Positions 14,277 to 59,806 of a DNA stretch of 64,000 nt are shown here, piece by piece. Source of the stretch: an uncultured Armatimonadota bacterium (GTDB taxonomy: Bacteria > Armatimonadota > Fimbriimonadia > Fimbriimonadales > Fimbriimonadaceae); assembly GCA_903899015.1 (NCBI GenBank), contig CAIUHP010000072.1, positions 1-64,000 of the forward strand, in the 5' to 3' direction. The first letter of the stretch is position 1, and every line of letters begins with the position of its first letter. A program made the translations under genes and the position numbers. The notes under the pieces are model-generated. The model did not search any database, was not told where the DNA came from, and saw nothing but the letters and a program-made list of their open reading frames with translations.

Positions 14277-15119
14277 ATGATCCCAACCGTTCTCGCTTCT
14301 GCACAAATCGTAGCTAGTTATGCTGGCGTTTCTCCAGCAACAGCTTCAACTACCGGTGGCAACGTCTCTCAGCCTGCGGCTCCGTTTTCTTCGGTGCCTT
14401 CAAAGCAGACTCAGACCGATGTTCCTAAGGTAGCCCCCGCACCCCCCAAGCAAACTCTCAAGTTCATTGAATCGGGTTACTTCGATTTGGGTTACGAGAA
14501 GTTGATCGGTCTGTTCAGTGACGCGATCGTACACGGTGGTGTTGCTTATGGCGACGATGACCTGACTGCGTTCGGGCGCTACAGTTCGCTCGACACTCGC
14601 GGAACGGGACTTCCTTATCCCCAGGCCGTCACTGGTACCACGGTTGGATTTGAAGCGAGACACTGGTTCCCTAAGCATCAGATGTTTGCGACCTTCCAGA
14701 TGGGCGATACCCTCAGCGGACCGAACAAGGGCAAAACAGATACCCGTTATGGCCTTGTGGGCTATACCAACTGGGTTTACGAAAAGTGGTTTAGCGACGT
14801 TTATGGGGAACTGTTCTACATCCCCATCGCAGGAGACACGTTCTTGGATATCCGATTCCGAAGCGGTCAGACGCTGATGAAGGATAAGGACGGCAACTAC
14901 TTCTGGCTTTATGTCGTCGGCCAAGGCTGGGCGGCAGGTCAAGGTGTTAGCGGCACTGAAAACCGCGTTGAAGCTGGTCCCGGAATTGCGTATGTCTACA
15001 AGAAACTGGCCCTGTCGGTCAATCTTGAAATGCGCGGCGGATACTCATTCCGAGGTCCGATTCCTAATCCGGTCTACTTCAATCCGACGCTTATTATCTC
15101 AAGCGGCTTCCAGAAGTAA
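14277..15119 (+). CDS. probable outer-membrane beta-strand-rich protein
   Basis: 280-residue protein with no family I can name. A short hydrophobic N-terminus is followed by a Pro/Ser/Thr/Gln-rich linker (~20-58). From ~60 onward the sequence alternates polar and aromatic residues in short strands (FIESGYFDLGYEK, ATFQMGDTLSG, YGLVGYTNWVYEKW, DIRFRSGQTLM, NLEMRGGYSFRG) and ends in a hydrophobic strand, which suggests a small beta-barrel. A GAGGAA lies 10 nt upstream of the ATG. A strong terminator follows the stop, so it is probably the only gene in its transcript. Confidence 0.7.
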   Translation: MIPTVLASAQIVASYAGVSPATASTTGGNVSQPAAPFSSVPSKQTQTDVPKVAPAPPKQTLKFIESGYFDLGYEKLIGLFSDAIVHGGVAYGDDDLTAFGRYSSLDTRGTGLPYPQAVTGTTVGFEARHWFPKHQMFATFQMGDTLSGPNKGKTDTRYGLVGYTNWVYEKWFSDVYGELFYIPIAGDTFLDIRFRSGQTLMKDKDGNYFWLYVVGQGWAAGQGVSGTENRVEAGPGIAYVYKKLALSVNLEMRGGYSFRGPIPNPVYFNPTLIISSGFQK

Positions 15120-15205: not shown

Positions 15206-16174
15206 CTACTTGGTGGGCGTTACATCCACGAAATAGAGGGCGGAGATATCGCCATCCAGATTGTCAACTTGGAACTCTTTTTCAAACTTCGGGTCTGAGC
15301 TGAGGGGCTGGATCACCATCTGGGCTTTGTCGCCGGTTTTCGCGTTGGCTACGTCGGTTTTCTTGCCCGCGATCAGTCCGAATCGAAACACTCGAATTTT
15401 CATTCCCGGTTTGAGAGCGCTCATTCGTCCCGATTGAATGCTGGTAATGGTGTATTCCTCAGCAACCAAAGCAGTGCGGTAAGGAGCAATTCGATCGAGT
15501 TCGGGAACGGGAGTCAGGGCCCCGAGTTCGGCATTGATGGTCACCGTCTTCGTGTCGGCATTAAGAGCTTTGGCCATGCTCTGGCCAGCGTGAAGATTGG
15601 CAACGATTTCGTCTTCGGTGAGTTCTCGGGAATAGCCACAGACGCCGATGATAGCTCCTTTCCAACTGTCCATTCCTACTTGCAAGGGCAGCAGAGGGCT
15701 GGTAGGGGTGATCGTCTGCAGTGCCCGCTCACCATTGATGGAGGCCAACACCGAATCGTAATGCTTGACGAATTGGATGTCATTCAACCCATCGGGACGC
15801 AAGGCTCCAATATCCAGTTGGCTCGATTCCTTGAGATACCAAAGGTGGCCATTCTTCACCGCGAGGGAAAGCCCCCCGAATTTGGCAAGTGTTCCGTCGG
15901 TGGTGGTGGTGAAAAGGATTTGAAGCGACTTCCATGCCGAAGAGTCGTTAGGAAGAGCAATATTGGACGTGGTCGGGTCTGCTGGCTCGTTCTTGGCCAC
16001 CTTTTCAGGAGATGGAGCGGTGGTTTGAAGCGACACCTGGACATGCTGTAACATTGCCGAACCCGTTGCGACTCCGTTGATCGCAAACAATGAGTTCGGC
16101 ACCAAGGGCCACTTGGCAGGACCCTGAGAGAAACCAACCGAAAGACAAACCGATAAAATGGCGAGTGGGATCAT
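15206..16174 (-). CDS. LamG-like exported protein, last gene of acetylation operon
   Basis: 322-residue exported protein. A signal peptide (MIPLAILSVCLSVGFSQG) precedes a middle region (~85-205) that reads like a concanavalin A/LamG jelly roll: WKSLQILFTTTTDGTLAKFG, LWYLKESSQLDIG, VLASINGERALQ, WKGAIIGVCGYSRELTEDEI. LamG-type domains bind or display carbohydrate. The C-terminal third is unassigned. Its start overlaps the stop of the hydrolase gene by 4 bp, so it is translationally coupled and a working part of the polysaccharide O-acetylation locus. The carbohydrate-binding role is inference. Confidence 0.7.
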   Translation of the reverse strand: MIPLAILSVCLSVGFSQGPAKWPLVPNSLFAINGVATGSAMLQHVQVSLQTTAPSPEKVAKNEPADPTTSNIALPNDSSAWKSLQILFTTTTDGTLAKFGGLSLAVKNGHLWYLKESSQLDIGALRPDGLNDIQFVKHYDSVLASINGERALQTITPTSPLLPLQVGMDSWKGAIIGVCGYSRELTEDEIVANLHAGQSMAKALNADTKTVTINAELGALTPVPELDRIAPYRTALVAEEYTITSIQSGRMSALKPGMKIRVFRFGLIAGKKTDVANAKTGDKAQMVIQPLSSDPKFEKEFQVDNLDGDISALYFVDVTPTK

Positions 16175-17865
16175 TTCACAAGTATCGAGCCAATCTGAAG
16201 ATTGCGTTTGTTAGGATCGAGGAAGAGGGTGGAAACCTGAGCGAGATTTTTGATCTTCTTCAGCGAAACGGAATACTCTTTCCAACCTTTGGCAAAGACA
16301 CTACCGGTCGGTACTAAGTCGACTTGCGTGTAGTTGGCTTTGCCAATTTCCACATAGTAGTTGGGATGGAACGCAAAGTAAGCACTGATTGGACCAGCCA
16401 GCCCATCGCCTTTCAGCCAGATATTGAAAGTCTGTTTGTTGCCCCAAAGGACGCCATCGACGTTCTGGAAAGTGATCGTTCCTTCGTGGCCGGGAGTTAC
16501 AATCGCAGACCCTTTGCCTTCAGGACCTTCGGTGCTCCAGGTGATATCGCCGGTGCGAATGTAAAGATCATCCTTTTCGGATGGATCAAACAGAACAGTC
16601 GGGTACGTCGCGTTTGCTTGTGCGATTCCGAGAGTTGAAGGTTCGATGTACTGAGGTCCGTTGGCGATCGTTCCAAACTTTTCGGTCTCAACTTCGGCGG
16701 CAAGATACATTGGCACTGAAGGGCTGTAGACCGGAATTTCAGCTTGGTAGGATTCACCTTGTTTGGTCATCGGCACTCGATGCCATGTGCGTCCCATCCA
16801 GTCACCGGCTTTGCCGTAACTCACGAGGACTTCCGAATGGGTGAGCGGCACCTTCGAATCGACGCTACAAACATAGATGAGTTTATTGCCTTCTACCTTG
16901 ATCGCTCCATCACCAAGCGAAGTTGGCTTCTCGCCTCCAAATTGCCAATGAGCTTGCCAACCGGTATAGCCGCGGAACTCTTTGCGAGAAGTCTCTTCGT
17001 GGTGGCGATTGGGAACTAAAACAAACCGCTTCTCACATTTGAGTTGGTCATACATCTCGATGATGGAGTCGAGCTTTGTGTAGTAGTCGTCGAGCGCGGT
17101 TCCTACGTAGATGGGCTTGGTGCCGTACTTGGCATAGGCCGCTGGGCAATACATCTCGTATAGCTTTCGAGATAGAACCGCCGGTTGCCCGCCTGAAGTA
17201 CCGTCTTCGTCGGTATGGTAACCCAGCCCGTGGTAGATGAAGTAGCAGCAGAGCCGATCGTCGAGGGCGTGGAGAAGCCCCACCATCGTTCCCGCCCATG
17301 AGTAGCCGGTGACAATGGTGGATGACAAATTGACTTCGGGGCGGGTCGACAAGTAATCCATCATCCGGAGCAGCGCAACCGTGTAATGGTAAATGTAGCT
17401 TTGATTCTTGTCTTCGGTGAATTGCTCGTTGATGCTGAATGGCTGCTTGTATTTCGGACCGCCAACTGAATCCTTCTTAGTAGGGTCCGTGTTGCCGGTA
17501 GGTGGAGCAACCGCGACTCCAAAGAATCCATTGGTTGCTTCCGCAATCAAGGGCTTTACCCGGAATCGTTCGACCACGACATCTCCAGGTGCAGCTTTGG
17601 CGCCGTCCTTGTAAGTTAGAATCGCGTAGATTCGGACGCCGGGGAGGGAGGTGTAGCGAATCTCCTCAATATTGACGTCGCCTTGCTTCGTCTTTGAAAT
17701 CGTTTCCACATCCAGAGGAACAGATCGGATGGCCTTCAGATCGAAAATACCAATGGTATCGGGGGTTTGGCTCTTGAGTGACGTTGCCGACGAGACCATT
17801 GCGATGGCTGCGAGCACGGCACAAGCGGCCAATTTCAACGGGTTCTTCAATTCGTTACGATGCAT
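16171..17865 (-). CDS. exported alpha/beta hydrolase, acetyl-xylan-esterase-like
   Basis: 564-residue exported protein. The N-terminus carries a signal segment (LAACAVLAAIAMVSSATS). Residues ~180-305 are an alpha/beta hydrolase: nucleophile motif GYSWAG, Asp in TALDDYYTK and His in VPNRHHEE complete a plausible catalytic triad. The C-terminal ~200 residues look like beta-sandwich carbohydrate-binding modules (NIWLKGDGLAGPISAYFAFH). The fold and context suggest an esterase acting on acetylated polysaccharide, perhaps trimming or reversing the work of the MBOAT/AlgJ genes upstream. It is the fourth of five genes, 42 bp after the SGNH gene. The esterase call is moderate. Confidence 0.7.
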   Translation of the reverse strand: MHRNELKNPLKLAACAVLAAIAMVSSATSLKSQTPDTIGIFDLKAIRSVPLDVETISKTKQGDVNIEEIRYTSLPGVRIYAILTYKDGAKAAPGDVVVERFRVKPLIAEATNGFFGVAVAPPTGNTDPTKKDSVGGPKYKQPFSINEQFTEDKNQSYIYHYTVALLRMMDYLSTRPEVNLSSTIVTGYSWAGTMVGLLHALDDRLCCYFIYHGLGYHTDEDGTSGGQPAVLSRKLYEMYCPAAYAKYGTKPIYVGTALDDYYTKLDSIIEMYDQLKCEKRFVLVPNRHHEETSRKEFRGYTGWQAHWQFGGEKPTSLGDGAIKVEGNKLIYVCSVDSKVPLTHSEVLVSYGKAGDWMGRTWHRVPMTKQGESYQAEIPVYSPSVPMYLAAEVETEKFGTIANGPQYIEPSTLGIAQANATYPTVLFDPSEKDDLYIRTGDITWSTEGPEGKGSAIVTPGHEGTITFQNVDGVLWGNKQTFNIWLKGDGLAGPISAYFAFHPNYYVEIGKANYTQVDLVPTGSVFAKGWKEYSVSLKKIKNLAQVSTLFLDPNKRNLQIGSILVK

Positions 17866-17907
17866 TAAGACGGGTTCTCCACATTCATGATATCTAGTAA
17901 GGGGGTT

Positions 17908-18951
17908 CTAGGGTCGAATTACTGGAACCCGCCTCCATCCTTGGCCCTCCGTGAATTCACGTACGGTAAAGCACCAGACAATAACTTTTTTGCCCGCGAG
18001 GTTGTCTCCTCGCCGAGCCAAATTCATTCGAGCGGGCGTGGCTCCAGAGCCTCGGACCGCAACGACATCGGGGCTGATGCCGCACTTGAGGGCCAAATTC
18101 TCCGGCAAACCGCAACCGGTTGCCAACATATCTTCTCCGATGGAATAGATCAGGTTGTGGCTGTCTCCGAGTAGGACGATCGGGCTCTGTCGGAACGAAG
18201 CAACGGGTGCGCCATTGGCATCTGAAACCTTGGTCAGAACCAAAGTTTCCGGGCTGCTTTTGGCATCGCCGGGCTGGCTCGCAAGATCTCCCACGACGTT
18301 GATGGTTTGCGAAGTCCCCGTGAACTTTGCGTGAGGTTTACCGGTTAAACCTGGCAATAACGATAACTTTTTGGCGATTTCATCGGCGGCAATTCGAATT
18401 CCGTAGCCTGACCAATGGGTGTCTTCTTTGCTATAGAGCAACTCTTCCGGATGTTCGCTTCGAGCCTTGAGGAACAGCGGAGCAAGGTCAACGACGTCGA
18501 TACCGTTCTTCTTCAAAATCGTGTTGAATTCGGCATCGGCTGCATCCAGACGTTGAGTGGGTGAGTTGATGGCACCATCAACAATCTTTTCGGGATAGAT
18601 CGCGGACTTGGCGGGCACCGGAACCATGATCAGCGCCACGCCGGCTTTGTCGAGTTGAGCTTTGAAGTCAAGAATTGCTGGCAACGGATCTGCGGCGGCG
18701 GGATTCGTCGCTTTGCTAACTTTGGATGCTGCTTCGCCCCAAAATGGACCCACACTCAAATGACGCAGCTCGCCCGGCAAGAACAACCATCCGTCCTTTC
18801 CGGGAATGACGGTTGGTGCAGATTCCTTATAGGATGCCAGTTTGGCAGTGAGGGCGCTCTTAAAGTCCTCAACTCCATCGGCTGCCAACAAAGATGCGGA
18901 GAGTAAGCCGAGCAAACACCCGGTCGTGATTTTGGTTTTCATGTTCGTCAT
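17908..18951 (-). CDS. AlgJ/AlgX-like SGNH O-acetyltransferase
   Basis: 347-residue exported SGNH-like protein of the alginate O-acetyltransferase type. Characteristic motifs in order: GKDGWLFLPGELRH (~53), SKEDTHWSGYGIRIAADE (Asp-His of the triad, ~190), and IVLLGDSHNLIYSIGEDML (GDS serine, ~285). The ATG at 18951 overlaps the preceding gene's TGA (ATGA); an in-frame ATG 9 bp later starts the signal peptide MKTKITTGCLLGLLSASLLA. In alginate systems AlgJ/AlgX transfer acetyl groups from the MBOAT protein to the polymer. The polymer here is unknown. Confidence 0.82.
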   Translation of the reverse strand: MTNMKTKITTGCLLGLLSASLLAADGVEDFKSALTAKLASYKESAPTVIPGKDGWLFLPGELRHLSVGPFWGEAASKVSKATNPAAADPLPAILDFKAQLDKAGVALIMVPVPAKSAIYPEKIVDGAINSPTQRLDAADAEFNTILKKNGIDVVDLAPLFLKARSEHPEELLYSKEDTHWSGYGIRIAADEIAKKLSLLPGLTGKPHAKFTGTSQTINVVGDLASQPGDAKSSPETLVLTKVSDANGAPVASFRQSPIVLLGDSHNLIYSIGEDMLATGCGLPENLALKCGISPDVVAVRGSGATPARMNLARRGDNLAGKKVIVWCFTVREFTEGQGWRRVPVIRP

Positions 18952-20894
18952 TTGCCTACCTCTCCCCAGAACGCACTCCAAGAAAGCGAGTCATCAGAAT
19001 CAAGTTCTTGTCGATTCAGACCTCCGTATTTCCCTTCGACATTCGCCCACGGTGTTAGCTTGAATTTGAGAATCTGTCCCACTGAGTACGCACCATCCAC
19101 AAGTTGATTGTCTTTCATTCCCCAAACGTAGACGACAATGTTTGGACCCTTCACCGTCCCTCCGGAAACTTTGATGTCCGTTATCTGGAGTGCGATCAGG
19201 CAGTCTTTGTAGGGTACCGAACCTGGCTTAGGCGTCACTGCTCGAGATGCGATTCGTCCCGTGACATACAGGCCCTCGGGTGGAGCTGGTTTCACGGGTT
19301 GCTTCGAGCCAGTGGTGGGCGGCTTGGTCCCGACTTGATTGGTGGAAGGAACCGGAGTCGGCTGTTTTGCTCCCTGAGTGGTAGGTTTAGGTTTAACGAT
19401 TGCGGGAACGGGCGTTGCGTTACCAGGCTTTTTCACTACACCAGGCTGAGTTGGTCCGGTAGAAGTTACTGCTGCAGGAGGATTTACGTGGGGAGTGGTT
19501 GGATGGGGCTCTTCGACCGGCTTGGGAGGCTGGGCAAGATGAATCATCTTCCAATCTCCTTCCGCAAGATCTCGCATTGAAAATTCGTAAATGACCAGAT
19601 GCTTGCCTGCGAGTCGATCGATTCCCGAAGCAAGCTGCTGAGCCAGGGCACGTCTTGAAGAAAAAGCGCCACCTGCGTTGATCGCAATCTTGTCGATCGG
19701 TCGATCAAGAAGATAGCTCAAGCGCTCGGCAAACCCGGCACTGGATCCCCAACCCATTCCCTCAAGAGAATAGATGTTGGAAAAGCTATCGCCCAAGAGC
19801 AACACGTCCGCCTTGGGGTCGCTTCGCCATGGTGATCCGTCAGGCATATTCGTTTTAAGTAAGCTAACCAATTCCTTGGGATAGAGAGTCTGATCTTCGG
19901 GTAATTTCAGCATCTCCGCAATGTCTCCCAAATTCGATACGCTCACTTCCTGCTCGCCGTAACGCGGACGGTCAATTTGAGGCAATTTACTGTCCATCCA
20001 TATGGATTTGGCTAACCCACGAGCGACTTCTTCCATGCCATTGGGCGTCCAGTGAGTATCCGTCGCAAGGAACTGCTTCCGACTTGTGCTCCTCTTTTGC
20101 TCGAGCAAGGTCGGAGTGGGATCGAAGACCTTAATTCCAAGATTGGATAGTTTTTGAACGAAAGGCTTGAACGATGCGTTCTCGAGCGCGCTGGTGCTTT
20201 CGCCTTGCCCAGTTAACATCTCTGGGTAAATCATCGGTTTAGTGGACACCGGCACGACAATTAGCTCGATGCCCCGACCTTTCAGTTGGTCGTTGAAGTC
20301 AGAGATTGCTTTAATCGGGTTGGGTTGGATTGCTGAGATTCCGTGTGAACGTAATTTGAGCGTCTCCGGGGCCAAGAAAGGTCCGTTCGTTAGGTACTCG
20401 ACGTCCGGTCGATAAAACAACCACCCATTGACGCCTACAAACGCTTTCTCGTTGCCAACCCCTAAAACTCCGGTCATCACCCCTTGAGTAGGCGAAAGAA
20501 GAGACTTCGTAAGGATGGAGTTCTCCTTGAGTGTCGTCTCAAAGGCGCTGATGCTCTCGCCACTTGGTATGAGACTCCAATATCCCCAGAACCCATTCGC
20601 CTGGGCGATTGCGTCGGTTTTCGGAAGCAGCTTGAATACGTCGTACACTTGGGGTAGCAGTGAGGGCTCTGGTTGGCCGCTTGTGGCCGTCCATCGAGTT
20701 CGTTTCGCCTCGTTTTGACGAATTTCCACCACGTGCTGAGCCACTGGAATTCCAAAAATCACGGCTAAGAACATCGCCGCTGTGAGCCACTGAGTTCCTT
20801 TGGAGAACTCGGTGTGGTTAAGGCATCTATCCGCTTCTTCTTCACGAGTTTTGTGAAGCCGACCGGTGGTTTTGGTTGGATTGACTTGGCTCAT
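18948..20894 (-). CDS. AlgX/AlgJ-like SGNH acetyltransferase with Pro-rich linker and C-terminal domain
   Basis: 648-residue protein with one N-terminal membrane segment (WLTAAMFLAVIFGIPVAQHV, ~36-55), so probably anchored in the inner membrane facing the periplasm. The SGNH-like domain spans ~140-435 with FVGVNGWLFYRPDVEYL, LATDTHWTPNGMEEVA and DVLLLGDSFSNIYS, giving the Asp-His and Ser of the triad. A Pro/Thr/Lys-rich linker (~440-540) follows, then a ~105-residue C-terminal beta-rich domain (KDCLIALQITDIKVSGG) that I cannot assign. It starts 4 bp downstream of the MBOAT gene stop and overlaps the next SGNH gene by 4 bp. Confidence 0.82.
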   Translation of the reverse strand: MSQVNPTKTTGRLHKTREEEADRCLNHTEFSKGTQWLTAAMFLAVIFGIPVAQHVVEIRQNEAKRTRWTATSGQPEPSLLPQVYDVFKLLPKTDAIAQANGFWGYWSLIPSGESISAFETTLKENSILTKSLLSPTQGVMTGVLGVGNEKAFVGVNGWLFYRPDVEYLTNGPFLAPETLKLRSHGISAIQPNPIKAISDFNDQLKGRGIELIVVPVSTKPMIYPEMLTGQGESTSALENASFKPFVQKLSNLGIKVFDPTPTLLEQKRSTSRKQFLATDTHWTPNGMEEVARGLAKSIWMDSKLPQIDRPRYGEQEVSVSNLGDIAEMLKLPEDQTLYPKELVSLLKTNMPDGSPWRSDPKADVLLLGDSFSNIYSLEGMGWGSSAGFAERLSYLLDRPIDKIAINAGGAFSSRRALAQQLASGIDRLAGKHLVIYEFSMRDLAEGDWKMIHLAQPPKPVEEPHPTTPHVNPPAAVTSTGPTQPGVVKKPGNATPVPAIVKPKPTTQGAKQPTPVPSTNQVGTKPPTTGSKQPVKPAPPEGLYVTGRIASRAVTPKPGSVPYKDCLIALQITDIKVSGGTVKGPNIVVYVWGMKDNQLVDGAYSVGQILKFKLTPWANVEGKYGGLNRQELDSDDSLSWSAFWGEVGK

Positions 20895-20898
20895 GACG

Positions 20899-22371
20899 TT
20901 AGAAAATGAAGTAGATAAACGGGTTGTATTCTTGGGTTACCAAAACGACAACCGCGAGCAGAAAGACGCCGAAACAGCAGACTGCCTTTCGACGAGTGAA
21001 GTTTTGGGTCCACTCCCATGTGTCTTGTACGAACCAAACCATGATCGCGGCCACTGCGAAGGCAAGTAAGTAGTACGGCTTGTAGATCAATCCGCTGACC
21101 AAGCTGGCATTCGCAGATCTTGGCCCTAGTCCGAACATGGAGCTCAAATAGGAGGTCGCCTTGCCCAGGTCGTTTGCTCGAAAGAAGATCCATCCCACCT
21201 GCACGACAAAGAACGTGATGGCGCCTCGAATGAGATGCGGAAGTTTGAAGTAAGGGTGCTGATCTCCAAGTGCTTTTTCTGCCGCGAGCGATCCTCCGTG
21301 AAGTCCACCCCAAATCACGAAGTTCCAAGAGGCACCGTGCCAAAGTCCGCCCAGCAGCATCGTCACCATCAGATTGATGTAGGTGCGAGTCTTGCCTTTG
21401 CGGTTGCCCCCTAATGGAATATAGAGGTACTCACGGAGCCATGTAGAAAGGGAGATATGCCAGCGTCGCCAAAACTCGGTGATTGAGAGCGAGCGATAGG
21501 GCGCATCGAAGTTTCTTGCGAAAACAAATCCGAACATCAGGCCAAGGCCAATTGCCATGTCGGAATAAGCGCTGAAGTCAATGAAGATCTGAAACGAGTA
21601 GCTCACCGCTCCAAACCACGCATCAAGTGGGTGAATACTATGAGCGTTGAACGCGGTATCGGCGACCTTTCCACAAGGGTTTGCCAGCAAGATCTTCTTG
21701 GCCATTCCCAGCATAAAGAAGGCTGAACCGCGTGCAAATTTATCGATCGTCAGGGAGCGTTTCTCAAGCTGGTCGGCTAGGAATGAGAACTTGAGGATTG
21801 GACCTGCTACCAGGTGAGGGAACATCGACACAAAGCAGGAGAAGTCGATGAAATTCCGCATCGCCTTTGCGTCGCCCCGGTAAACGTCGATGATGTAGCT
21901 GAGTGATTGGAAGGTGTAAAAGCTGATTCCAAGCGGCAACACCACGCGGAAGAACGTATCCCAATGAAGCTGAGAAGCTCCAGCCGCGAGTACCGCGCCG
22001 TTATAGCTGTCGAGGAAGAAGTTGAAGTACTTAAAGAACCCAAGCATCAACAGATTGGAGACAATCGAGATGATGAGGGCAGTTCGCTGGCATTTCGAGC
22101 GCTCGGTCCTCGGTAATTCGACCAATTTCGGCTTCCAATCTTTCCAAAAACGCCAGGAGCTGTACGCGATGACCAGGCTCAATAACCAGTCAAGAAACGT
22201 GGTGCCGAACATCAAAAAGATGAACTTAGGGTTCACCCAGCCGTAGAACACGTAGCCAAGCAACGCTAGACAAAGGTTGCGAGCACGTTGCGGAGCCTTA
22301 TAAAGCGAGTAATAGATCGCCAAGGCCAAGGGTAAGAAGTAGAAAGCGAATATTTGTGAACTAAAGACCAC
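20899..22371 (-). CDS. MBOAT O-acyltransferase, AlgI-like
   Basis: 490-residue polytopic membrane protein. It begins FSSQIFAFYFLPLALAIYY, typical of AlgI/DltB-type MBOAT proteins, and carries the core motif FWRRWHISLSTWLREYLYIP followed by LLGGLWHGASWNFVIWGGLH, with the conserved catalytic His in WHGASW. Its role would be to move acetyl groups across the inner membrane for SGNH proteins encoded just downstream. The start is GTG at 22371, set by a strong GGAGGAG about 8 nt upstream. First gene of the five-gene operon. Confidence 0.92.
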   Translation of the reverse strand: MVFSSQIFAFYFLPLALAIYYSLYKAPQRARNLCLALLGYVFYGWVNPKFIFLMFGTTFLDWLLSLVIAYSSWRFWKDWKPKLVELPRTERSKCQRTALIISIVSNLLMLGFFKYFNFFLDSYNGAVLAAGASQLHWDTFFRVVLPLGISFYTFQSLSYIIDVYRGDAKAMRNFIDFSCFVSMFPHLVAGPILKFSFLADQLEKRSLTIDKFARGSAFFMLGMAKKILLANPCGKVADTAFNAHSIHPLDAWFGAVSYSFQIFIDFSAYSDMAIGLGLMFGFVFARNFDAPYRSLSITEFWRRWHISLSTWLREYLYIPLGGNRKGKTRTYINLMVTMLLGGLWHGASWNFVIWGGLHGGSLAAEKALGDQHPYFKLPHLIRGAITFFVVQVGWIFFRANDLGKATSYLSSMFGLGPRSANASLVSGLIYKPYYLLAFAVAAIMVWFVQDTWEWTQNFTRRKAVCCFGVFLLAVVVLVTQEYNPFIYFIF

Positions 22372-22611: not shown

Positions 22612-23463
22612 TTAAATGAATTCGAATATCTTATTCATGCTGGCAGCGACGATGTCGAGGCGTGCGGCATCGTTGGGCAAGTCGCTAAGCTCTTTCTTGA
22701 ATGGTTCCGCGACAACCGGGCCGGAATAGCCAATCTCCTTCAACGCGTTGAGGAAGCCTTTCATGTCAATCAGACCCGTTTCGCCGGGAAGTCCACGAAC
22801 ACCGTCCAATTGCTCATCGACTGGAACACCCAACGGGCCGTCGTTGACATGCACGTAGACAACATCGGCCTCACTAAGTTGTTTGATTTGGTCGTTGGTG
22901 CCGTGGGAAGTGTAAAGGTGCCAGCTATCAAGGAGGAGCCCAACATTGGGACCGATCCAGTTCGCCATATTCATCATGCCCGGAAGGTCGTAGACAAATT
23001 CGTGGGTGAATTTATCCCGAAGGGTCTTGGGGCCAACGAATTCCAATCCTAATCGGTGACCGTGCTCACCCAAGATGTCTGCGATCGGCTTGAATCTCTC
23101 GACGTGGAATTTGAGGTTTGCATCGAATTCTAGGTCGTTTGAAGCAGGCATGATCCAAGTTGAAACGCGGAAGCATCCAATTTCTGCGGCTGCTTTTGCG
23201 AGCCGCGGCAGCTTTTGTAAATCGCTTTTCCAGTTTTCTTCCGAGGATCTCCAGTCGGTCGGTAAGCCCCAACCGCAAGCAATCACATCGGCTTGCTCAA
23301 AAAGTGAAGTCACCGACTCTGCGCCGCCAGCGTCGATAAGGTCGGCAACTTCATAGACGTCGATTTCAACCCCTGCAAAGCCATGACCTTTGGCAGCAGC
23401 GATGCGCTGCTGAATGTTCTCTACTTTGACTCCAATAGCACCTGGACTCAGACCGATGTACAT
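22612..23463 (-). CDS. sugar phosphate isomerase/epimerase-like TIM barrel
   Basis: 283-residue protein of the xylose isomerase-like/AP endonuclease 2 TIM-barrel superfamily. Metal-binding positions are recognisable: GLEFVGP (Glu, ~138), LLLDSWHLYTSH (Asp-x-x-His, ~180), VYVHVNDGPLG (His and Asp, ~210) and VVAEPFKKEL (Glu, ~255). Members isomerise or epimerise sugars or inositols; the substrate is not predictable. It is monocistronic, closed by its own terminator. No Shine-Dalgarno site is obvious before the ATG. Confidence 0.82.
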   Translation of the reverse strand: MYIGLSPGAIGVKVENIQQRIAAAKGHGFAGVEIDVYEVADLIDAGGAESVTSLFEQADVIACGWGLPTDWRSSEENWKSDLQKLPRLAKAAAEIGCFRVSTWIMPASNDLEFDANLKFHVERFKPIADILGEHGHRLGLEFVGPKTLRDKFTHEFVYDLPGMMNMANWIGPNVGLLLDSWHLYTSHGTNDQIKQLSEADVVYVHVNDGPLGVPVDEQLDGVRGLPGETGLIDMKGFLNALKEIGYSGPVVAEPFKKELSDLPNDAARLDIVAASMNKIFEFI

Positions 23464-23505
23464 GCTTGAAGGTTTACCGCAACGGCGCTGTGAATAACCG
23501 GAGAA

Positions 23506-24837
23506 TTAGATCGGTTTTGTGAGTCCAACCGGTTGGGGTTGGTACCCAACAAAAACTTCGGACAGATTGTCATTTCTCATTCGGTTTTTCACGACTTCGG
23601 ACAGTACGTCTCGGTAATCCGTCGTGACTCGAAGGTCTCCAGTTTCGTCTAGTTGGTGGTCCTCAAGGCCCGGCCATTTGGAATAGATTTGCCCGCCCAT
23701 TGTTCCTCCTCCCATCAGCATCATAAAACTAGCCCGTCCGTGATCGGTGCCAAGGCTGCTGTTTTCGGCAACGCGTCGGCCGAATTCGGTCATGACGACC
23801 ACCGTGACATGATTCATGTCGCTTCCCATATCGGTTGCGAACGCTGCAAGGGATTGCCCCAAATCATCAAGCGCTAAGGGCAGAATACCGACCGTACTTC
23901 CTTGTGCGAAGTGAGTGTCCCACCCTGTTCGGTCAAGGGATGCGATTTCCAATCCAAGGTTCGCACGGATGAGGCATGCTGTTTGACGAAGTCCATTGCC
24001 CAAGTCCGACGTTGGATATTTGGCTCCGTTGGATGGCTGATAGCTCTTAGGATCGATTTTACGAAGCGAGCTCAAAACGGCAAGCGTTTCTTGTCCGGCA
24101 TGGGCGACTTCATCCTTGTCACCTTTATAGAGGTCTAGCAGAGCCTTTTCGAAGTGGATTTGTTTGTCTTCGGGAGTATTCAATTTAAAGTCTGCCAGAG
24201 ACTCTAAAGCGACCGCATTTGCGGCTCCACGAAGCATATCCGGCAAGGTTCCGCTAAATGCGACTGCTCGCAACGGTGAGTCTGTTGGGGACTCCGTCAG
24301 CGCCATGTGCCGTGCTATCCATCCACTCGCAGGGCCAGGACCTTCGGCTGCCAGACCTCGTTCAACCGCGGCCATCGCTTCGAAATGTGATCGCGTAGCG
24401 TCTTGGGAACCGCAAGCGTGAAGGCAAGCCAGCTTGCCTTCCCGATAGAAATTGAGAAGGGGAGCAAGAGATGGATGCAAGCCGAACTTGCCGTCTAGAT
24501 CCAGTAGCCGAGCGGCTACTCCAGACCGTCTATCCTTGGGTGACGCTATGGATAGGTTGGGTCGTTTGCGATAGTAGGCGTCCTCGAAATACGGGGCGAC
24601 GATGTTGAGCCCGTCGGCTCCCCCTCGCAGAAACACATTGACGAGTACATCATGGGGGCGATTTTTGCCTACTTTGCTGACTTTTAGCTCGGCCAACGAA
24701 GATCGTGTTCCTGCCCAGGCGGCCAAGCTGAAGCCTGCTCCAAGTAGCAGGTTTCGTCGAGTTGGCTTAGCTTGCTGAAGAGCCTGCCAAAGTTTATTTT
24801 CGGTGCAACTGAACCAGTCTTGACTCATTTTTCTCAC
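23506..24837 (-). CDS. DUF1501 family TAT-exported protein
   Basis: 443-residue protein of the DUF1501 family (sulfatase/phosphatase-like fold). The N-terminus has a twin-arginine-type signal (TRRNLLLGAGFSLAAWAGT). Family landmarks are FLRGGADGLNIVAPYF, LHPSLAPLLNFYREGKLACL, WDTHFAQG and VVVMTEFGRRVAENSSLGTDHG. Biochemical function is not established. It begins 12 bp after the DUF1800 gene; DUF1501 and DUF1800 genes commonly sit together in Planctomycetes and Armatimonadota, and the pair probably acts together in the periplasm. Confidence 0.88.
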   Translation of the reverse strand: MRKMSQDWFSCTENKLWQALQQAKPTRRNLLLGAGFSLAAWAGTRSSLAELKVSKVGKNRPHDVLVNVFLRGGADGLNIVAPYFEDAYYRKRPNLSIASPKDRRSGVAARLLDLDGKFGLHPSLAPLLNFYREGKLACLHACGSQDATRSHFEAMAAVERGLAAEGPGPASGWIARHMALTESPTDSPLRAVAFSGTLPDMLRGAANAVALESLADFKLNTPEDKQIHFEKALLDLYKGDKDEVAHAGQETLAVLSSLRKIDPKSYQPSNGAKYPTSDLGNGLRQTACLIRANLGLEIASLDRTGWDTHFAQGSTVGILPLALDDLGQSLAAFATDMGSDMNHVTVVVMTEFGRRVAENSSLGTDHGRASFMMLMGGGTMGGQIYSKWPGLEDHQLDETGDLRVTTDYRDVLSEVVKNRMRNDNLSEVFVGYQPQPVGLTKPI

Positions 24838-24849
24838 TCAATCGGCACG

Positions 24850-26301
24850 CTATCGCCATTGGAACGACGGTGAAGCCAAACAAAGGAATCCGGCCCCTTC
24901 ATATCCCTTTGTGCCGTGACTCATTTCTTGCGTGAGCTTTTGAAGAAGCACACGGTCCTGGCTGCCTGCTCGTCGAGCGTGGGTGAGTTCGAAGAGTTTC
25001 TCAGGATTATTTTCTCGCACTAACTCGGGCCAATTCACTTCGGTCCCTCGGATAGTGTTTGAGGCAAGTTGATAGGCAAAATTCCAGCGCGGGAGCATCG
25101 TGCCGGTCCACGCACCGGTGTTCGAAGGATATCCGTCGGGCATTGGCCATTGGTAAAGTGGCTCACCCAGTGCGGCGAGGTGGGTTTGAATCGCTTCTCC
25201 GCCGTCCGTATCGGCTTCCAAGGCACGAATTGAGGACACGATGTAGTCAAACGGTCGCTTGAGGATAGGTGGAGAATTCATCAAGTCGTCTGAGACCAAA
25301 ATCGGTCGAATCATTGAAGGAATATCTCCCTTCGAATTCAAGTAGGTCTGAGCCGTTCGATCGACCCACTTCTCTCCATCCGCTCCTAAAAAGTAGGTGC
25401 AGAGCTTGGTTGCTAGGTGGTGAGCGGTAGCAGGGTGGTTCGCAAGAATCTCCAGTACGTGCTCGGCATCCTGCTTGCCTCCCCCGGCAGGAATGGTATG
25501 GCCCAAGACGTGTTTGACTCCATTATCGTGCTTTTCTTCCTCGAAGATATAAGCCCATCGATGGTGTAGGAATCGTCGCTCAATCGTCCAACCGGTGAAG
25601 CACCGGGCAACTTCCTGAACATCTTTTTGGGAGTATCCGCCCTTCACACCCATCGTGTGGAGTTCCATGATTTCTCGTGCGTAATTCTCATTTGCCCGAC
25701 CGGAGACATTGCTTTGGTTGTCGAGATAGATAAGCATTGCCGGGCTGTGGGCCGAGGCCTTGAGCATTTCTGGGAAAGAGCCAAGTGCGTGCTTACGAAT
25801 GACATTCGTTTCGTCGGTGGCCTTCCGGAAAGCGGCAAGTCCTTTCCGACCGTAAATGTTGAAATGATTCGTCCAAAAATCAACCATCCTTTCGTGAAGT
25901 TGATTTTTTCCATAGGCAGCACGGAGGATTGCTGCCATCTGAAGTTGGCGAAGGACTTCTCGTTCGGGGAGATCTTGGGTGTCGTACGGGTCCATCTGAA
26001 AAACATCCAGCCGATTCAGCAGAAACTGAAGGCGCATGTCTTCCTTTTCGTCCGCGCGAATGAGTGAGTCGACGTAAGTAATCCGTCCCATGCTTTGAAC
26101 AGCCGCAATCTCGCCTGGGCGAGGTCCAAAAGTCAATCGTTGTACGAGACGAGCTGTCTCATCGGTTTTTCCTGCGGGCAAGGCCGAATCGTATTGATGC
26201 TCCACGAAGTGGTTGGCCAGTTTGGCGCAACCACCCAATGCGCTTGCTGCGCTACCCATGAGCCCGATTCGAAGGCAGTCACGCCGGGAAACACCGCTCA
26301 T
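24850..26301 (-). CDS. DUF1800 family protein
   Basis: 483-residue DUF1800 protein. Recognised from RLVQRLTFGPRPGEIAAV, MVDFWTNHFNIYGRKG, YLDNQSNVSGRANENYAREI with the following MELHTMGVKGGYSQKDVQEV, and the late PMPDGYPSNTGAWTG segment. The N-terminus (SRRDCLRIGLMGSAASALGGCA) combines a twin-arginine motif with a lipobox-like GGC, so a Tat-exported lipoprotein is possible. Function of the family is unknown. It overlaps the upstream membrane protein gene by 4 bp (ATGA) and precedes the DUF1501 gene. Confidence 0.87.
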   Translation of the reverse strand: MSGVSRRDCLRIGLMGSAASALGGCAKLANHFVEHQYDSALPAGKTDETARLVQRLTFGPRPGEIAAVQSMGRITYVDSLIRADEKEDMRLQFLLNRLDVFQMDPYDTQDLPEREVLRQLQMAAILRAAYGKNQLHERMVDFWTNHFNIYGRKGLAAFRKATDETNVIRKHALGSFPEMLKASAHSPAMLIYLDNQSNVSGRANENYAREIMELHTMGVKGGYSQKDVQEVARCFTGWTIERRFLHHRWAYIFEEEKHDNGVKHVLGHTIPAGGGKQDAEHVLEILANHPATAHHLATKLCTYFLGADGEKWVDRTAQTYLNSKGDIPSMIRPILVSDDLMNSPPILKRPFDYIVSSIRALEADTDGGEAIQTHLAALGEPLYQWPMPDGYPSNTGAWTGTMLPRWNFAYQLASNTIRGTEVNWPELVRENNPEKLFELTHARRAGSQDRVLLQKLTQEMSHGTKGYEGAGFLCLASPSFQWR

Positions 26302-48922: not shown

Positions 48923-48962
48923 CCGGAGCCAACAATCGCTGTTGGCTCCGGATCTTTTTTTA
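48923..48962 (+). terminator. rho-independent terminator
   Basis: CCGGAGCCAACA pairs perfectly with TGTTGGCTCCGG around a 5-nt loop, followed by ATC and a T run. It closes the NHL-protein gene; the T run reaches the stop codon of the convergent DUF1501 gene. Confidence 0.92.
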
Positions 48963-50432
48963 AGCTAGTAGCTTGGTAACGAGTTCGCCATGGACGTCCG
49001 TTAAGCGGAAGTTTCTGCCTTGGAACTTGTAGGTAAGCCGAGTATGGTCCAAGCCCATTTGGTGGAGAATCGTTGCGTTCAGGTCGTGTACGTGAACTGG
49101 GTCCTTAACCACGTTATAGCCTATGTCGTCAGTTTCACCGAGGGTGGTTCCAGGCTTGATGCCGCCTCCCGCCATCCAGCAACTATAAGCATGGGGATGG
49201 TGGTCTCGTCCCAAAAACTTCGAGCCATCTCGTGCTTCGTTTACTGGCGTTCGCCCGAATTCTCCGCTCCAAACGACCAACGTATCTTCCAGCAGTCCGC
49301 GACGTTTCAGATCAATGATGAGTGCGGTGGCCGCTTTGTCCGTCTCTTGGCAAAGCTTCGGCAAACCATGTTTCAAGTCATCGAATTCTGCTTCGCCATG
49401 GTGGTCCCAACCGCGGTGGTAGAGTTGAACGAATCGAACGCCCCGTTCAATTAAGCGGCGGGCTAGCAAGCAGTTATTTCCAAACGAGGCCTCTCCGGGT
49501 TTGGTGCCGTAAAGGTCATGCACTTCCTGTGGTTCTTTGGAGATATCCATTAGGTCCGGCACGCTGGTTTGCATCTTGTATGCCATCTCATAGGCAGCGA
49601 TCCGAGTCTCGATCTCAGGATCTCCCATCACGTTTTCACGCATCATGTTCAAATCGCGAATAGAGTCGAGTTGCTGACGGCGCGTATCTGCTGAGATTCC
49701 TTCAGGATCGGAAACATAGAGAACAGGATCACCCTTCGATCGGAATTCGACTCCTTGGTACACGGAAGGAAGGAAGCCGCTGCTCCAGCAAGACTTGCCC
49801 CCGTCCGGGTTGTTGTGTCCAGAGATGAGTACGACAAATCCAGGAAGATCTTCACACTCGCTGCCCAAGCCGTAGGTTAGCCAAGAGCCCATGCTTGGCC
49901 GGCCAGGCAACTGACTACCGGTGTTCATGAACAGCTGAGCGGGAGCATGGTTGAATTGGTCGGTGTGCATCGATTTCACAATCGTCACATCGTCCGCAAT
50001 GCTTTGCAGTCCGGGAAGAAGGTTCGAGATCTCTTGACCCGATTTTCCTACTTTCGAGAATTGGTGGGGTGAGCCAAGAAGTCTGGGGGTTCCTTTGATA
50101 AAGGCAAAGCGCTCGTTCTTGATGAATTCAGCCGGGATCGGTTCGCCATCATGCTTTTGAAGGGTTGGCTTCATGTCAAACAGATCAATTTGTGAAGGGG
50201 CTCCCGCCATAAATAGGTAGATCACTCGTTTGGCTTTCGGAGCAAAGTGCGGCATCTTAGGAGCGAACGGATCGGTTCGCTTGGATTTCTGCTTTTGAAA
50301 CGCGGCGAAGCCAGATTCACTGAGCATTGCGCTCAAGGCCAATGAGCCGATTCCGTAGCCTGCAGTCTTGAGCAGGTTGCGACGAGTTATTTCCCGAAGG
50401 ACGAGTTGGTCGATATTGTCGTTAATGCTCAT
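48960..50432 (-). CDS. DUF1501 family protein, partner of PSD1 protein
   Basis: 490-residue DUF1501 (sulfatase-like) protein. N-terminus with a Tat-like signal ([20 protein letters not shown]). Landmarks: [27 protein letters not shown]-like [75 protein letters not shown] and [18 protein letters not shown]. It starts 2 bp after the PSD1-type gene, the classic Planctomycete pairing of a c-type cytochrome domain protein with a DUF1501 protein. The biochemical role is unknown. Confidence 0.92.
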
Positions 50433-50434
50433 GA

Positions 50435-52756
50435 CTATTCCTTGGTAATTGCTTCGTCGAGATTCAAAATAACTTGGGCGACGATGGTGTAAGCAGCCTC
50501 GACAGCCAGCTTGGGGTTGTCGGTAGTAGATGAAAGTAGCTTCTTTGCTTCACTCGGGTTGGCTCCAAAGCGGACCTCCTGCTGACTGAGCAAAACCTCT
50601 AAGCGAGCCGTTTCGGCGGGACTCGGTTTGCGCACCATTACCGATCGAAAACCGAAATCCAATCGTGCTTTGGCTTCGGTGCCGCCGTCCTTCATCATTC
50701 GGTCCGCGAGGGCGTGGGCGGCGTTAAGGTAGACCTTATCGTTGAGCAAAGTGAGCGCTTGCAACGGTGTATTGGTTCGTAATCTCCTAACCGTACAGCT
50801 CTCTCGACTGGTCGCGTCGAAACTCAAGAACGATGGATAAGGCGAGGTTCGCTTCCAAAAGGTGTACAAACCGCGTCTTAGGCGATCCGTTCCAGGACTC
50901 AGTTGCCAAGACTCATCGTTGTAAGGTGTGTTCCATATGCCGTCTGGCTGGTCAGGGTAAACGCTCGGTCCTCCGATCTTGTTGCTGAGCAAACCTGATG
51001 CTTGAAGAGCGGAGTCTCGGATCATTTCTGCCGTCATTCGGAATCTGGGGCCGCGAGAAAGTAGCCGATTTTCCGGGTCCTTCTCTCGCATGGTTACGGT
51101 CTCGACGGATGACTGACGGTAGGTATTGCTCGTAACGATGAGTCGGTACATCGCCTTCATGCTCCAATGTCGGTTGATAAATTCAACCGCGAGCCAGTCG
51201 AGTAAATCCTTATAAATGGGCTTTTCACCTTGGGAGCCAAAGTCTTCAACGGTCTTGACCAAGCCGATTCCATAGATGCTTTCCCACATCTGGTTGATTC
51301 GAACTCGAGCCGTGAGAGGGTTTTCTGGACTGACGAGCCACTTTGCCAAGCCGAGTCGATTTTGAGGAAGATCTTTAGCGAGCCGTGGAAGAATCTTTGG
51401 AACATCTGCGGTGACGATCTTGCCTGGAGATAGGTAACCTCCTTTGATTCGGATTGGGGTCTTGGGCGGATATTCTCCCTTCTTCTCTTCAAGGATCAAT
51501 GCGCTTGCGCTCGACAACTCATTGATCTTCCCGCGTAACTGTTGAGCGGCATCGGAAACCGCCTTGTAGTCTTCGGGGCTGCCTTTTAGCTTGGGTAACG
51601 TCTTTTCGAGCTTTGCAAGTTCGTCGCTCATCTCATGAACTTTTGGATCAGTCAGGTCCAAAGTAGGTTCGTTGGAGCTCTCATAGAACGCCAACATGCG
51701 ATAGAAGTCTTCTTGGCTGAATGGGTCGTACTTGTGGTTGTGACACTGGGCGCAGCCAAGGGTTGAACCGAGCCATACACTGCCGGTGGTGGCAACTCGG
51801 TCGACTAGGGTCAACCATCGTTGCTCTCCTTTATCCACGCCTCCTTCCGTATTGAACATCGTGTTGCGGTGAAATCCAGTCGCAATAAGCTGATCGCGAC
51901 TCGCGTTGGGAAGGAGATCGCCTGCTAGCTGTTCAATCGTGAATTCATCGAATGGCATGTCTTGGTTAAATGCCTTGATCACCCAATCGCGATAGGGCCA
52001 CATGGTGCGATTGAGGTCCTTTTCATATCCAGTTGAGTCCGCATACCTAGCTAAGTCGAGCCAAGGTGTTGCTTGGTGCTCACCGTATGCGGGGGAGTCG
52101 AGTAGCTTGTCGACAACCAACTCGTATGCATTCGGCCGATTATCGGCGAGGAAGCGATTGGTGTCTTCAACGGACGGTGGCAGTCCGGTTAGGTCGAGGT
52201 AGACCCGTCGTAAAAGGGTTGCTTTGGGAGCAGGTGCGGATGGAGTTAAATGCTCGGAGGAAAGCTTGGCCAAAACGAACGAATCGATTGGGTTTTTGAT
52301 CCAAGCGGTTGGACCAACCTTTGGAACATGTTGCTCAGGCGCAATATACGCCCAATGTTTTCCAGCACCATTTGCACTTACATGGGCCCCCTCATCAATC
52401 CATTGCTTCATGGTTGCGATCTGAACCGGTGTTAATGGACTGAAACCCATCGGCATGCGAGGTCCTAGTTCCGTTCCCACAACCCTTTGGATGATTAGGC
52501 TACTGGCTGACTTCCCAGGGATGAACAGTGGCCCATTCTTGCCGCCCTTCAGGATTCCTGCCGCCGTGTCCAGCCGAAGTCGACCCATATGGCTTTCTGA
52601 TCCATGGCATTGGAGGCAATGAGCCCGGAAAATGGGAGCTATCTCTTGACTGAAGTCAACCTTAGGGGTTGGAGCTTTGGATGCAGCCGATGTCCCGATG
52701 AGAAGAACCCATGGCGAGACCACTATGCAACCTAAAGCGACCTTGCTGGCACGCAT
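50435..52756 (-). CDS. PSD1 and cytochrome c domain-containing protein
   Basis: 773-residue exported protein with the PSCyt1-PSCyt2-PSD1 architecture. A signal segment ([17 protein letters not shown]) leads into a haem c site, [20 protein letters not shown] (Cys-x-x-Cys-His, ~47-51). The PSCyt2/DUF1549 domain spans ~130-345 ([48 protein letters not shown]-like [18 protein letters not shown]), and PSD1/DUF1553 ~490-745 ([60 protein letters not shown]). One cytochrome suggests periplasmic electron transfer coupled to the DUF1501 partner; function is unproven. Confidence 0.93.
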
Positions 52757-54915: not shown

Positions 54916-55824
54916 TTATTCGAACATTTCTGCCGCGATTCCTGCGAGTGCATCCATGACTGTCAAATCGACGTTGATCACTTCTGCTCGTCGGAAGTTG
55001 AGGCTTAACTCCGCACAACGATCTCGGGCTTCAATTCCAAGATCGTAAAGTACTTCTAGGTGGTCGGAAACGAAGCCAACCGTGCAACAGACAATATTCT
55101 TGTATTTTGGAGCCTCGGCCGAAATAACTTCCAAAACATCTGGCCCAAGCCAGGGCTCGCCAGTTGTGCTTGCACTCTGGTAGGCAAATGTCCAGTGGGG
55201 AAGATTTAAATTCTCTGCCACAAGTTTACTGGTCTCCATAAGCTCTTCCGGATAAGGGTCGCCGGCCGCCATGATTCGCTGAGGAAGACTGTGAGCCGAG
55301 AAGATCACAAGTGTTTCTTCCGCATTCCAGCCGTTCAACTGGTCTTGAACTCGGTTCGCGACAGCCTCGATAAAGGCAGGCAAGGTACCCCACCTTTCCA
55401 GAACCGAGAGCTTCATTTCTGGAGCATTTTTGTCTCGTGAATCATAGGCGTATTTCTTGTAGGCTTCAACGCTATAGCTGGAGTAGTGCGGCGCAAGAAC
55501 AATGCCGACTGCGTCCGTTACGCCATCCTTTGCCATCTGTTCAACAACTTCAGCGACAAAAGGATGCGTGTGCTTGGCTCCGATATAAAGTTCAGCATCA
55601 ATCCCTCGTGCTTTAAGTGATTTCTGAATTGCGAGGCCTTGATTCTCTGAAATGTGCGACAAGGGCGATGGGCCGCCGATCGACTGATAGCGATCAATCA
55701 AATCCTGCAAAGCTTCTGGTTCAGGAGGGCGACCGCGTCGAATGTGGGTGTAGTAGGGCAACACGTCGTCAATCGACGAGGGAGTGCCGTAATGCATAAC
55801 AAGTAAAGCGTGCTTTTTTGGCAT
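54916..55824 (-). CDS. hemH: coproporphyrin-type ferrochelatase (HemH/CpfC)
   Basis: 302-residue ferrochelatase very close to the Bacillus protein in layout: YTHIRRGRPPEPEALQDLID, YIGAKHTHPFVAEVVEQMA, SIVLAPHYS-like VGIVLAPHYSSYSVEAYKKY, FSAHSLPQRI (catalytic His) and GFVSDHLEVLYDLG (catalytic Glu). The N-terminal YGTP keeps the Tyr that binds porphyrin iron in Bacillus. With hemQ in the same operon it probably inserts iron into coproporphyrin III, not protoporphyrin IX; under that scheme the name is cpfC. Last gene of the operon, 53 bp after hemE. Confidence 0.93.
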   Translation of the reverse strand: MPKKHALLVMHYGTPSSIDDVLPYYTHIRRGRPPEPEALQDLIDRYQSIGGPSPLSHISENQGLAIQKSLKARGIDAELYIGAKHTHPFVAEVVEQMAKDGVTDAVGIVLAPHYSSYSVEAYKKYAYDSRDKNAPEMKLSVLERWGTLPAFIEAVANRVQDQLNGWNAEETLVIFSAHSLPQRIMAAGDPYPEELMETSKLVAENLNLPHWTFAYQSASTTGEPWLGPDVLEVISAEAPKYKNIVCCTVGFVSDHLEVLYDLGIEARDRCAELSLNFRRAEVINVDLTVMDALAGIAAEMFE

Positions 55825-55877
55825 AGTAGGTTTCGTTTGGGCAATTCTACGAAGTCGAACAGATTCCGTTCGCGAAG

Positions 55878-56891
55878 TTAAGAACCCTGTACGGCCTCCA
55901 CAAGTGCTTGGACATTCTCCATCGGGGTAAGCGGATAGATGCCGTGACCAAGATTGAAAATGTGGCCAGGAAGAGTTCGACCTTGTTCCACAACCGCGAG
56001 TGCCTTTTTGCGGACGATTTCAGGGTTTGTGAGCAAGACAGCTGGATCAAGATTGCCTTGCATCGGGGTCGGGCGTACCAATTTGGCGGCGTGAGACAAA
56101 CTAATGCGCCAGTCCACTCCAATGACGTCTCCGCCTGCTTCTTGCATCACGTTTAAGAGGGCGGCGCTTCCCGTTCCAAAGTGGATGACAGGCGCTCCTA
56201 ATGGCTTCAAGCCTTCAAATATATGCTTCATATGAGGAAGCAAGAATTCTCGATAGGTGGCTTCATCCAGAACTCCAATCCAGCTATCAAAAAGCTGAAC
56301 CGCATCGGCTCCTGCCTGAATTTGAGCCCGCAAGTAACGGAGGGTGTTCTCAGCTAACAGAGCCATTAAGTTATGCCAAAACTCAGGCTCCATCAGCATG
56401 AGGCTGCGAGTGAGTTTGTGGTCCTTCGAGGGACCGCCTTCGATAAGGTACGACGCGAGGGTAAAGGGTGCTCCCGTAAACCCAATGAGGGGAACCTTGA
56501 GTTCTTTCTTGAGGATCCGAATGCTTTCCAGAACGAATGGGAGGCCCTCTTCTGGTTCAAACAATCGTAAAGCCGCAAGATCTTGTGCGGTTCGAATGGG
56601 ATGCTCAACAACAGGCCCGACACCTTCTTTGATGTCAAAAGGAGCTCCCATTGGGGTGAATGGAACGGTGAGGTCTGAGAATAAGATCGCGGCGTCAAAC
56701 CCAAATCTTCGAATCGGTTGAAGCGTGATCTCAGCTGCAACTTCGGGATGGCTTACGGATTCGACCATCGTCATACCCTTACGAATTTCACGATATTCAG
56801 GCAAATAACGACCTGCCTGGCGCATGACCCAAATGGGAGGACGGTCGACCGATTCACCTCGACAAGCTCTTAAAAATCGAGTGTCTTTCAT
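55878..56891 (-). CDS. hemE: uroporphyrinogen decarboxylase HemE
   Basis: 337-residue HemE. The family signature PPIWVMRQAGRYLPEYREIR appears at ~18-37 and the second one near GFTGAPFTLASYLIEGGPSK. It decarboxylates four acetate side chains of uroporphyrinogen III to give coproporphyrinogen III in the cytoplasm. Its ATG overlaps the hemL stop by 4 bp (ATGA). Confidence 0.97.
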   Translation of the reverse strand: MKDTRFLRACRGESVDRPPIWVMRQAGRYLPEYREIRKGMTMVESVSHPEVAAEITLQPIRRFGFDAAILFSDLTVPFTPMGAPFDIKEGVGPVVEHPIRTAQDLAALRLFEPEEGLPFVLESIRILKKELKVPLIGFTGAPFTLASYLIEGGPSKDHKLTRSLMLMEPEFWHNLMALLAENTLRYLRAQIQAGADAVQLFDSWIGVLDEATYREFLLPHMKHIFEGLKPLGAPVIHFGTGSAALLNVMQEAGGDVIGVDWRISLSHAAKLVRPTPMQGNLDPAVLLTNPEIVRKKALAVVEQGRTLPGHIFNLGHGIYPLTPMENVQALVEAVQGS

Positions 56892-59804: not shown

Positions 59805-59806
59805 AA

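Follow-up and report, generated by a model that had tools for sequence, protein, structure and literature searches.

A Fimbriimonas MBOAT-SGNH operon with an undescribed domain shared by two proteins and a CE7-like hydrolase

In a 4.94-Mb draft genome of Fimbriimonas (Armatimonadota), five adjacent genes form an MBOAT-SGNH operon that is set apart by an undescribed domain common to two of its proteins and, within Armatimonadota, by a dedicated hydrolase resembling CE7 enzymes. The main new result concerns the domain: by profile comparison, X1C, at the C-terminus of one SGNH protein (SGNH-1), and LamC, at the C-terminus of a LamG-fold protein, belong to a single family that is absent from Pfam. 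The properties of bacterial surface polysaccharides are in many cases set by O-acetylation, but to our knowledge the accessory components responsible for polymer choice and for placement of the transferase have been described for only a few systems, mainly that of alginate. The shared domain is found with AlgX-type machinery in Armatimonadota, Verrucomicrobiota/Kiritimatiellae, Planctomycetota and Syntrophaceae, and provides a handle to find and annotate such systems. Since the Armatimonadota operon unites a writer, a presumed reader and a presumed eraser, their cooperation can be tested in the cultured species Fimbriimonas ginsengisoli. No paper on this gene combination was found in open-access text.

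Organization and catalytic components of the operon

The operon lies at positions 15206-22371 of the window, the 64,000-nucleotide stretch of DNA that was analysed, and consists of five minus-strand genes encoding, in this order, an AlgI-like MBOAT protein, the proteins SGNH-1 and SGNH-2, an alpha/beta hydrolase and the LamG protein. All five open reading frames of the original prediction are present. The gaps between the genes range from -4 to +42 bp: the MBOAT and SGNH-1 genes are 4 bp apart (+4), SGNH-1 and SGNH-2 share an ATGA overlap, SGNH-2 and the hydrolase are separated by 42 bp, and the hydrolase and LamG genes overlap by 4 bp. This spacing is operon-like.

The leading gene (20899..22371, minus strand) encodes a protein of 490 residues which matches PF03062 with an E-value of 3e-29, in agreement with its initial description as an AlgI-like MBOAT heading the operon. 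It starts with a GTG codon, preceded by the ribosome-binding site AGGAGGAG, and its product is 76-84% identical to the corresponding proteins of four other Fimbriimonas genomes. The sequence contains the His motif RRWHISLS, the motif GLWHGASW and, at the C-terminus, the hexapeptide FIYFIF (20902..20919, minus strand), which by motif comparison is an FxYxxF acyl shuttle with Tyr487 as its tyrosine. An F-x-Y-x-x-F terminus is present in 34 of the 34 MBOAT entries compared, a few of which represent the same gene twice. The window protein combines this terminus with the conserved histidine, the two features by which the MBOAT component of MBOAT-SGNH acyltransferases is recognized. In PatA, the tyrosine of FxYxxF is the carrier from which acetyl passes to the SGNH partner PatB, a model that its authors carry over to the alginate and cellulose systems (PMC12148441). 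The window genome contains a second MBOAT gene, 38% identical to the first, which is adjoined by a gene of 298 aa (L022:8589-10867, G000:C75).

SGNH-1 (AlgX1, 648 residues, 18948..20894, minus strand) and the exported SGNH-2 (AlgX2, ~347 residues, 17908..18951, minus strand) match PF16822 with E-values of 3e-31 and 2e-27, respectively. As predicted, both contain the DTHW and GDS motifs, which are found in nearly all relatives examined, and both possess the D-x-H and GDS serine expected of the SGNH partner in an MBOAT-SGNH acyltransferase. SGNH-1 comprises an N-terminal transmembrane segment, an SGNH/ALGX domain (19578..20438, minus strand) identified by its Pfam match and the motifs TDTHW and LGDSFS, a Pro-rich linker and a C-terminal domain, and this architecture had been correctly anticipated. 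The solved structures nearest to it by sequence are those of AlgJ (3e-11) and AlgX (2e-8). In SGNH-2 the corresponding motifs are VPVPAK, EDTHW and LGDSHN; its start is more likely the ATG at 18951 than the TTG at 18981 of the ORF list, because of the ATGA overlap. Compared with the signature motifs of AlgJ, PxK and (R/K)TDTHW (PMC4148444), SGNH-2 shows PAK and EDTHW, and SGNH-1 shows STK and TDTHW.

The exported hydrolase (564 residues, 16171..17865, minus strand; pLDDT of the predicted model 91) contains the anticipated GYSWAG motif and a signal-like N-terminal segment, and is built from a CE7-like core and C-terminal beta domains. A comparison of the model with the PDB yields CE7-type enzymes (acetyl xylan esterase / cephalosporin C deacetylase) as the best 21 entries, with Z-scores of 19.6-22.3, followed by a group of various hydrolases with Z-scores from 17.3. 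Foldseek and sequence profiles agree on CE7 as the nearest family, and the model displays the CE7 fold. Although the core superimposes on CE7 esterases with Z-scores of ~22 and rmsds of 3.3-4.1 Å for ~260 residues, sequence identities are 14-16%, and the window protein has an extra C-terminal beta region of 250 residues. The motifs GGSQG and RGQ, which are signatures of CE7, are absent from its sequence, and for this reason the hydrolase is described as CE7-like and not filed as CE7; in addition, no AXE1 Pfam match is obtained at an E-value of 0.1. S9 peptidases and CE15 are likewise similar to the core in structure comparisons. A PhoPQ-related identity was rejected, the match having an E-value of 3e-4, just under the cut-off, and being weaker than the CE7 evidence. 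Ser189, Asp260 and His289 (S189, D260 and H289), which are retained in at least 90% of 17 hydrolase relatives, form the putative catalytic triad.

Conservation of the gene order

The order MBOAT, SGNH-1, SGNH-2, hydrolase, LamG is kept in five of 20 Fimbriimonas genomes, i.e., the window genome, G013, G004, G005 and G008. Because four other Fimbriimonas genomes preserve both order and sequence, the locus is not the product of chance. In G013 the arrangement is as in the window, and in three of the five genomes the hydrolase gene is duplicated: it is doubled in tandem in G004 and G005, and in G008 the SGNH genes are followed by hydrolase, hydrolase, LamG, hydrolase and LamG-2. One of the G008 paralogues (L021:11936-13663, minus strand) has lost all three putative catalytic residues (Ser, Asp and His) and is likely a pseudoenzyme maintained beside copies that retain the triad.

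The full set occurs again in a second Armatimonadota family. In G190, all five genes and a beta-rich neighbour, discussed below, are found at one locus, in the order hydrolase and LamG-LamC, second hydrolase, AXE1 esterase, beta-rich neighbour, MBOAT, SGNH-1 and SGNH-2. The acetyl xylan esterase at this locus is a true AXE1 member, and SGNH-1 of G190 carries the C-terminal domain. The five-gene locus of the original prediction is real and conserved. Full-length relatives of the hydrolase are present in seven of 291 Armatimonadota genomes (the five Fimbriimonas genomes, G189 and G190), all seven of which also have SGNH-1 and a LamC protein; extra hydrolase copies in G189 and G190 are located away from the operon locus. 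A contig scan with the hydrolase alone gave no match to short exact peptide patterns, which miss relatives. Within the material searched the hydrolase is seen only in Armatimonadota, and it is therefore not essential to the module.

The beta-rich neighbour is a small exported protein of 280 residues, encoded convergently to the operon (14277..15119, plus strand). Orthologues adjoin the locus in G013 and G008, and in G190 the orthologue is the gene immediately upstream of MBOAT; in G004 the gene is not adjacent to the locus. Pfam and PDB searches with this protein returned no match. It is possibly a sixth component of the system, and an outer-membrane or export barrel would be our guess. On the other side of the operon, upstream of the MBOAT gene, TIM-barrel, DUF1501 and DUF1800 genes are found (22612-26301, minus strand), which keep the same position in G004 and G005; near the operon locus of G008, too, a DUF1800 gene is present.

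The shared X1C/LamC domain and its distribution

The LamG-fold protein (322 residues, exported, 15206..16174, minus strand) was modelled with a pLDDT of 89. Residues 17-206 form a jelly roll matching concanavalin A-like lectin domains with Z-scores of up to 15. The window protein itself has no Pfam match, and Pfam support for the LamG-like assignment, which had been proposed at the outset, comes from relatives only, two of which match Laminin_G_3 (best E-value 2.6e-11). The remaining part, LamC (15209..15562, minus strand; residues ~205-320), is predicted to be a separate small beta domain, with a block pLDDT of 94-98 across most of its length. X1C (18951..19274, minus strand) comprises ~108 residues. 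In an hhalign comparison X1C and LamC align with a probability of 97.2% and an E-value of 3.3e-11 (1e-6 in an earlier, smaller comparison), which identifies them as homologous. Pfam, NCBIfam and PDB sequence searches reveal no family for either domain; sub-threshold weak Pfam matches (S1-type, DUF1344) hint at a small beta-barrel and do not constitute evidence. This corrects the initial description: the two unassigned C-terminal domains, of SGNH-1 and of the LamG protein, form one family.

Relatives of SGNH-1 were sought with the SGNH-1 alignment, using patterns outside the C-terminal domain. SGNH-1-type loci are present in Syntrophaceae, Verrucomicrobia, Kiritimatiellae (Pontiella), Planctomycetota and related MAGs, and nearly all complete SGNH-1 genes at these loci bear the shared domain. 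At many of them the gene upstream of the MBOAT gene ends in the LamC form, located behind a propeller-like region that may or may not be accompanied by LamG; such propeller or propeller-LamG proteins are encoded just upstream of the MBOAT gene in Verrucomicrobiota, Kiritimatiellae and Syntrophaceae. The view of the LamG protein as a local extra is overturned by this recurrence in other phyla. Loci of the Fimbriimonas, Syntrophaceae and Pontiella types each carry copies of the domain on two different proteins, and several other Armatimonadota have it as a separate small lipoprotein, encoded next to SGNH-1. Three genomes without LamC at the SGNH locus have it elsewhere.

The association is also evident from genome counts. 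SGNH-1 is found in 24 of the 26 LamC-bearing Armatimonadota genomes, compared with 28 of 291 overall (hypergeometric 8e-29, kinship ignored; the strong SGNH-1 set of 28 genomes was hand-picked from E-values). In the phylum of Pontiella, all 29 LamC-bearing genomes have ALGX, which occurs in 101 of 288 genomes (hypergeometric 3e-15, kinship again ignored), and in 23 of the 29 a domain copy and an ALGX gene are no more than 6 kb apart.

The domain is also encountered in other settings. In the window genome, L029:533-2721 (G000:C4) encodes a standalone copy of 130 aa, with a BD-FAE-type esterase gene downstream and, in divergent orientation, an SGNH-like gene whose product has a GDS motif; the pair of domain and SGNH genes is found again in L030 (G013). 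In L131:2584-7932 an SGNH-like protein is fused to the shared domain, and a divergently encoded protein of 1065 aa also ends in it; no MBOAT gene is present in the stretch seen.

Proposed function and alternative explanations

Family assignments, catalytic motifs, conserved linkage, domain homology and the esterase-like fold are established here, and the operon probably functions in polysaccharide O-acylation of the MBOAT-SGNH type, most likely O-acetylation, with its own reader and eraser. The MBOAT protein would draw acetyl from acetyl-CoA and load the tyrosine of its C-terminal FIYFIF. The membrane-anchored SGNH-1, and perhaps SGNH-2, would take the acetyl group on the GDS serine and transfer it to a polymer located beyond the cytoplasmic membrane. 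This polymer would be bound by the LamG protein, and the CE7-like hydrolase may strip acetyl from it, for trimming or recycling. The shared domain could co-localize the transferase and the reader, either by polymer binding or by mutual docking. Acetyl as the acyl group, a polymer as the acceptor and the roles of the shared domain and the LamG protein are what we infer from these features. The idea that the set acetylates, recognizes and deacetylates a surface polymer is partly supported, by the gene order, whose loss in relatives would have counted against it and which is conserved, by the return of the full set in a second Armatimonadota family, and by the acetyl esterases being the nearest folds of the hydrolase.

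Among the closest known systems is that of alginate in Pseudomonas (AlgI/AlgJ/AlgF/AlgX), which likewise combines an MBOAT with two ALGX-family SGNH proteins, one of them membrane-anchored, has the same catalytic motifs and carries an accessory C-terminal domain on one SGNH protein. X1C occupies the position in SGNH-1 at which AlgX has its carbohydrate-binding module, and this C-terminal module of AlgX binds the polymer (PMC4148444). Unlike the alginate system, the operon adds an esterase and a LamG partner, X1C has no sequence match to the AlgX module, and the window ORFs scanned with Pfam include no alginate synthesis or export genes (alg8, alg44, algE, algK). The systems for acetylated cellulose, WssF-I and CcsHI, follow the same MBOAT-SGNH logic on an exopolysaccharide, but differ in their accessory proteins, and the window contains no cellulose synthase. 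The earlier statement that no polymer synthase is nearby stands for the window ORFs scanned (Pfam); elsewhere in the genome four long GT2 genes are present. Because no synthase lies near the operon, the polymer acceptor keeps its conditional status. In one Syntrophaceae genome the module is embedded in a glycan cluster of sugar-nucleotide, GT2, WsaF and GT9 genes, which supports a surface glycan as the acceptor. Chances seem about even that the systems with X1C/LamC constitute a class of their own in surface-polymer O-acylation, one that extends across phyla. In this class the domain would tie the SGNH transferase to lectin or propeller readers and, within Armatimonadota, also to a dedicated CE7-like eraser, whose target would be an undescribed polymer.

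The shared domain might instead be a pure docking module, analogous to AlgF, with copies that bind each other or a common partner and leave the polymer untouched. The beta-sandwich protein AlgF has a mediating role, in which it binds AlgJ and AlgX and does not bind alginate (PMC10641220), and both the small lipoprotein form beside SGNH-1 in other Armatimonadota and the presence of copies on two proteins of one locus would fit such a role. However, the shared domain showed no sequence match to AlgF, its place on SGNH-1 equals that of the polymer-binding module of AlgX (PMC4148444), and the L131 copy is fused to an SGNH protein in a stretch seen to lack an MBOAT gene; docking alone is possible, though not favoured. 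AlgF itself (PF11182) was found in none of 15 genomes, in a search without a positive control.

An esterase at such a locus is also known from the peptidoglycan OAP clusters, where an AlgI-like MBOAT, an SGNH transferase and an O-acetyl esterase are grouped as PatA/PatB with Ape1/Ape2 (PMC1199599). An esterase next to an AlgI-like MBOAT is therefore not unprecedented, a qualification to the initial description. PatA also shares the C-terminal FxYxxF shuttle (PMC12148441), whereas the esterase of the present operon is a CE7-like alpha/beta hydrolase instead of an SGNH/CE3 enzyme, and the operon differs further in its two ALGX-type transferases, LamG protein and shared domain. The abundance of glycoside hydrolases in the window (GH9, GH97, apiosidase-like), the resemblance of the hydrolase core to S9 peptidases and CE15, and the loss of the triad in one paralogue could indicate that the hydrolase, and perhaps the LamG protein, has some other, unrelated target, for example a peptide or the ester of a plant polysaccharide, and shares only the transcript with the acylation genes. 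This is unlikely, as the linkage of the hydrolase is kept in two families, no full-length relative was found in any genome without the machinery, and the LamG protein has a domain in common with SGNH-1. Quite improbable is a target in peptidoglycan or a wall-linked glycan, with the operon as a PatA/PatB/Ape counterpart: the common MBOAT, SGNH and esterase logic (PMC1199599) and the lack of a polymer synthase in the window would agree with it, but the solved structures nearest to the SGNH proteins by sequence are AlgJ and AlgX, the Syntrophaceae relatives lie within a surface-glycan cluster, and LamG and propeller partners suit larger, exposed glycans.

Two further gene groups were observed in the window, both on the minus strand. 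A PSCyt1/PSCyt2/PSD1 protein gene followed by a DUF1501 gene, a pair familiar from Planctomycetes, is located at 48960-52756, and a run of heme biosynthesis genes, including one for a chlorite dismutase-family (HemQ-like) protein, extends from 54916 to 62877.
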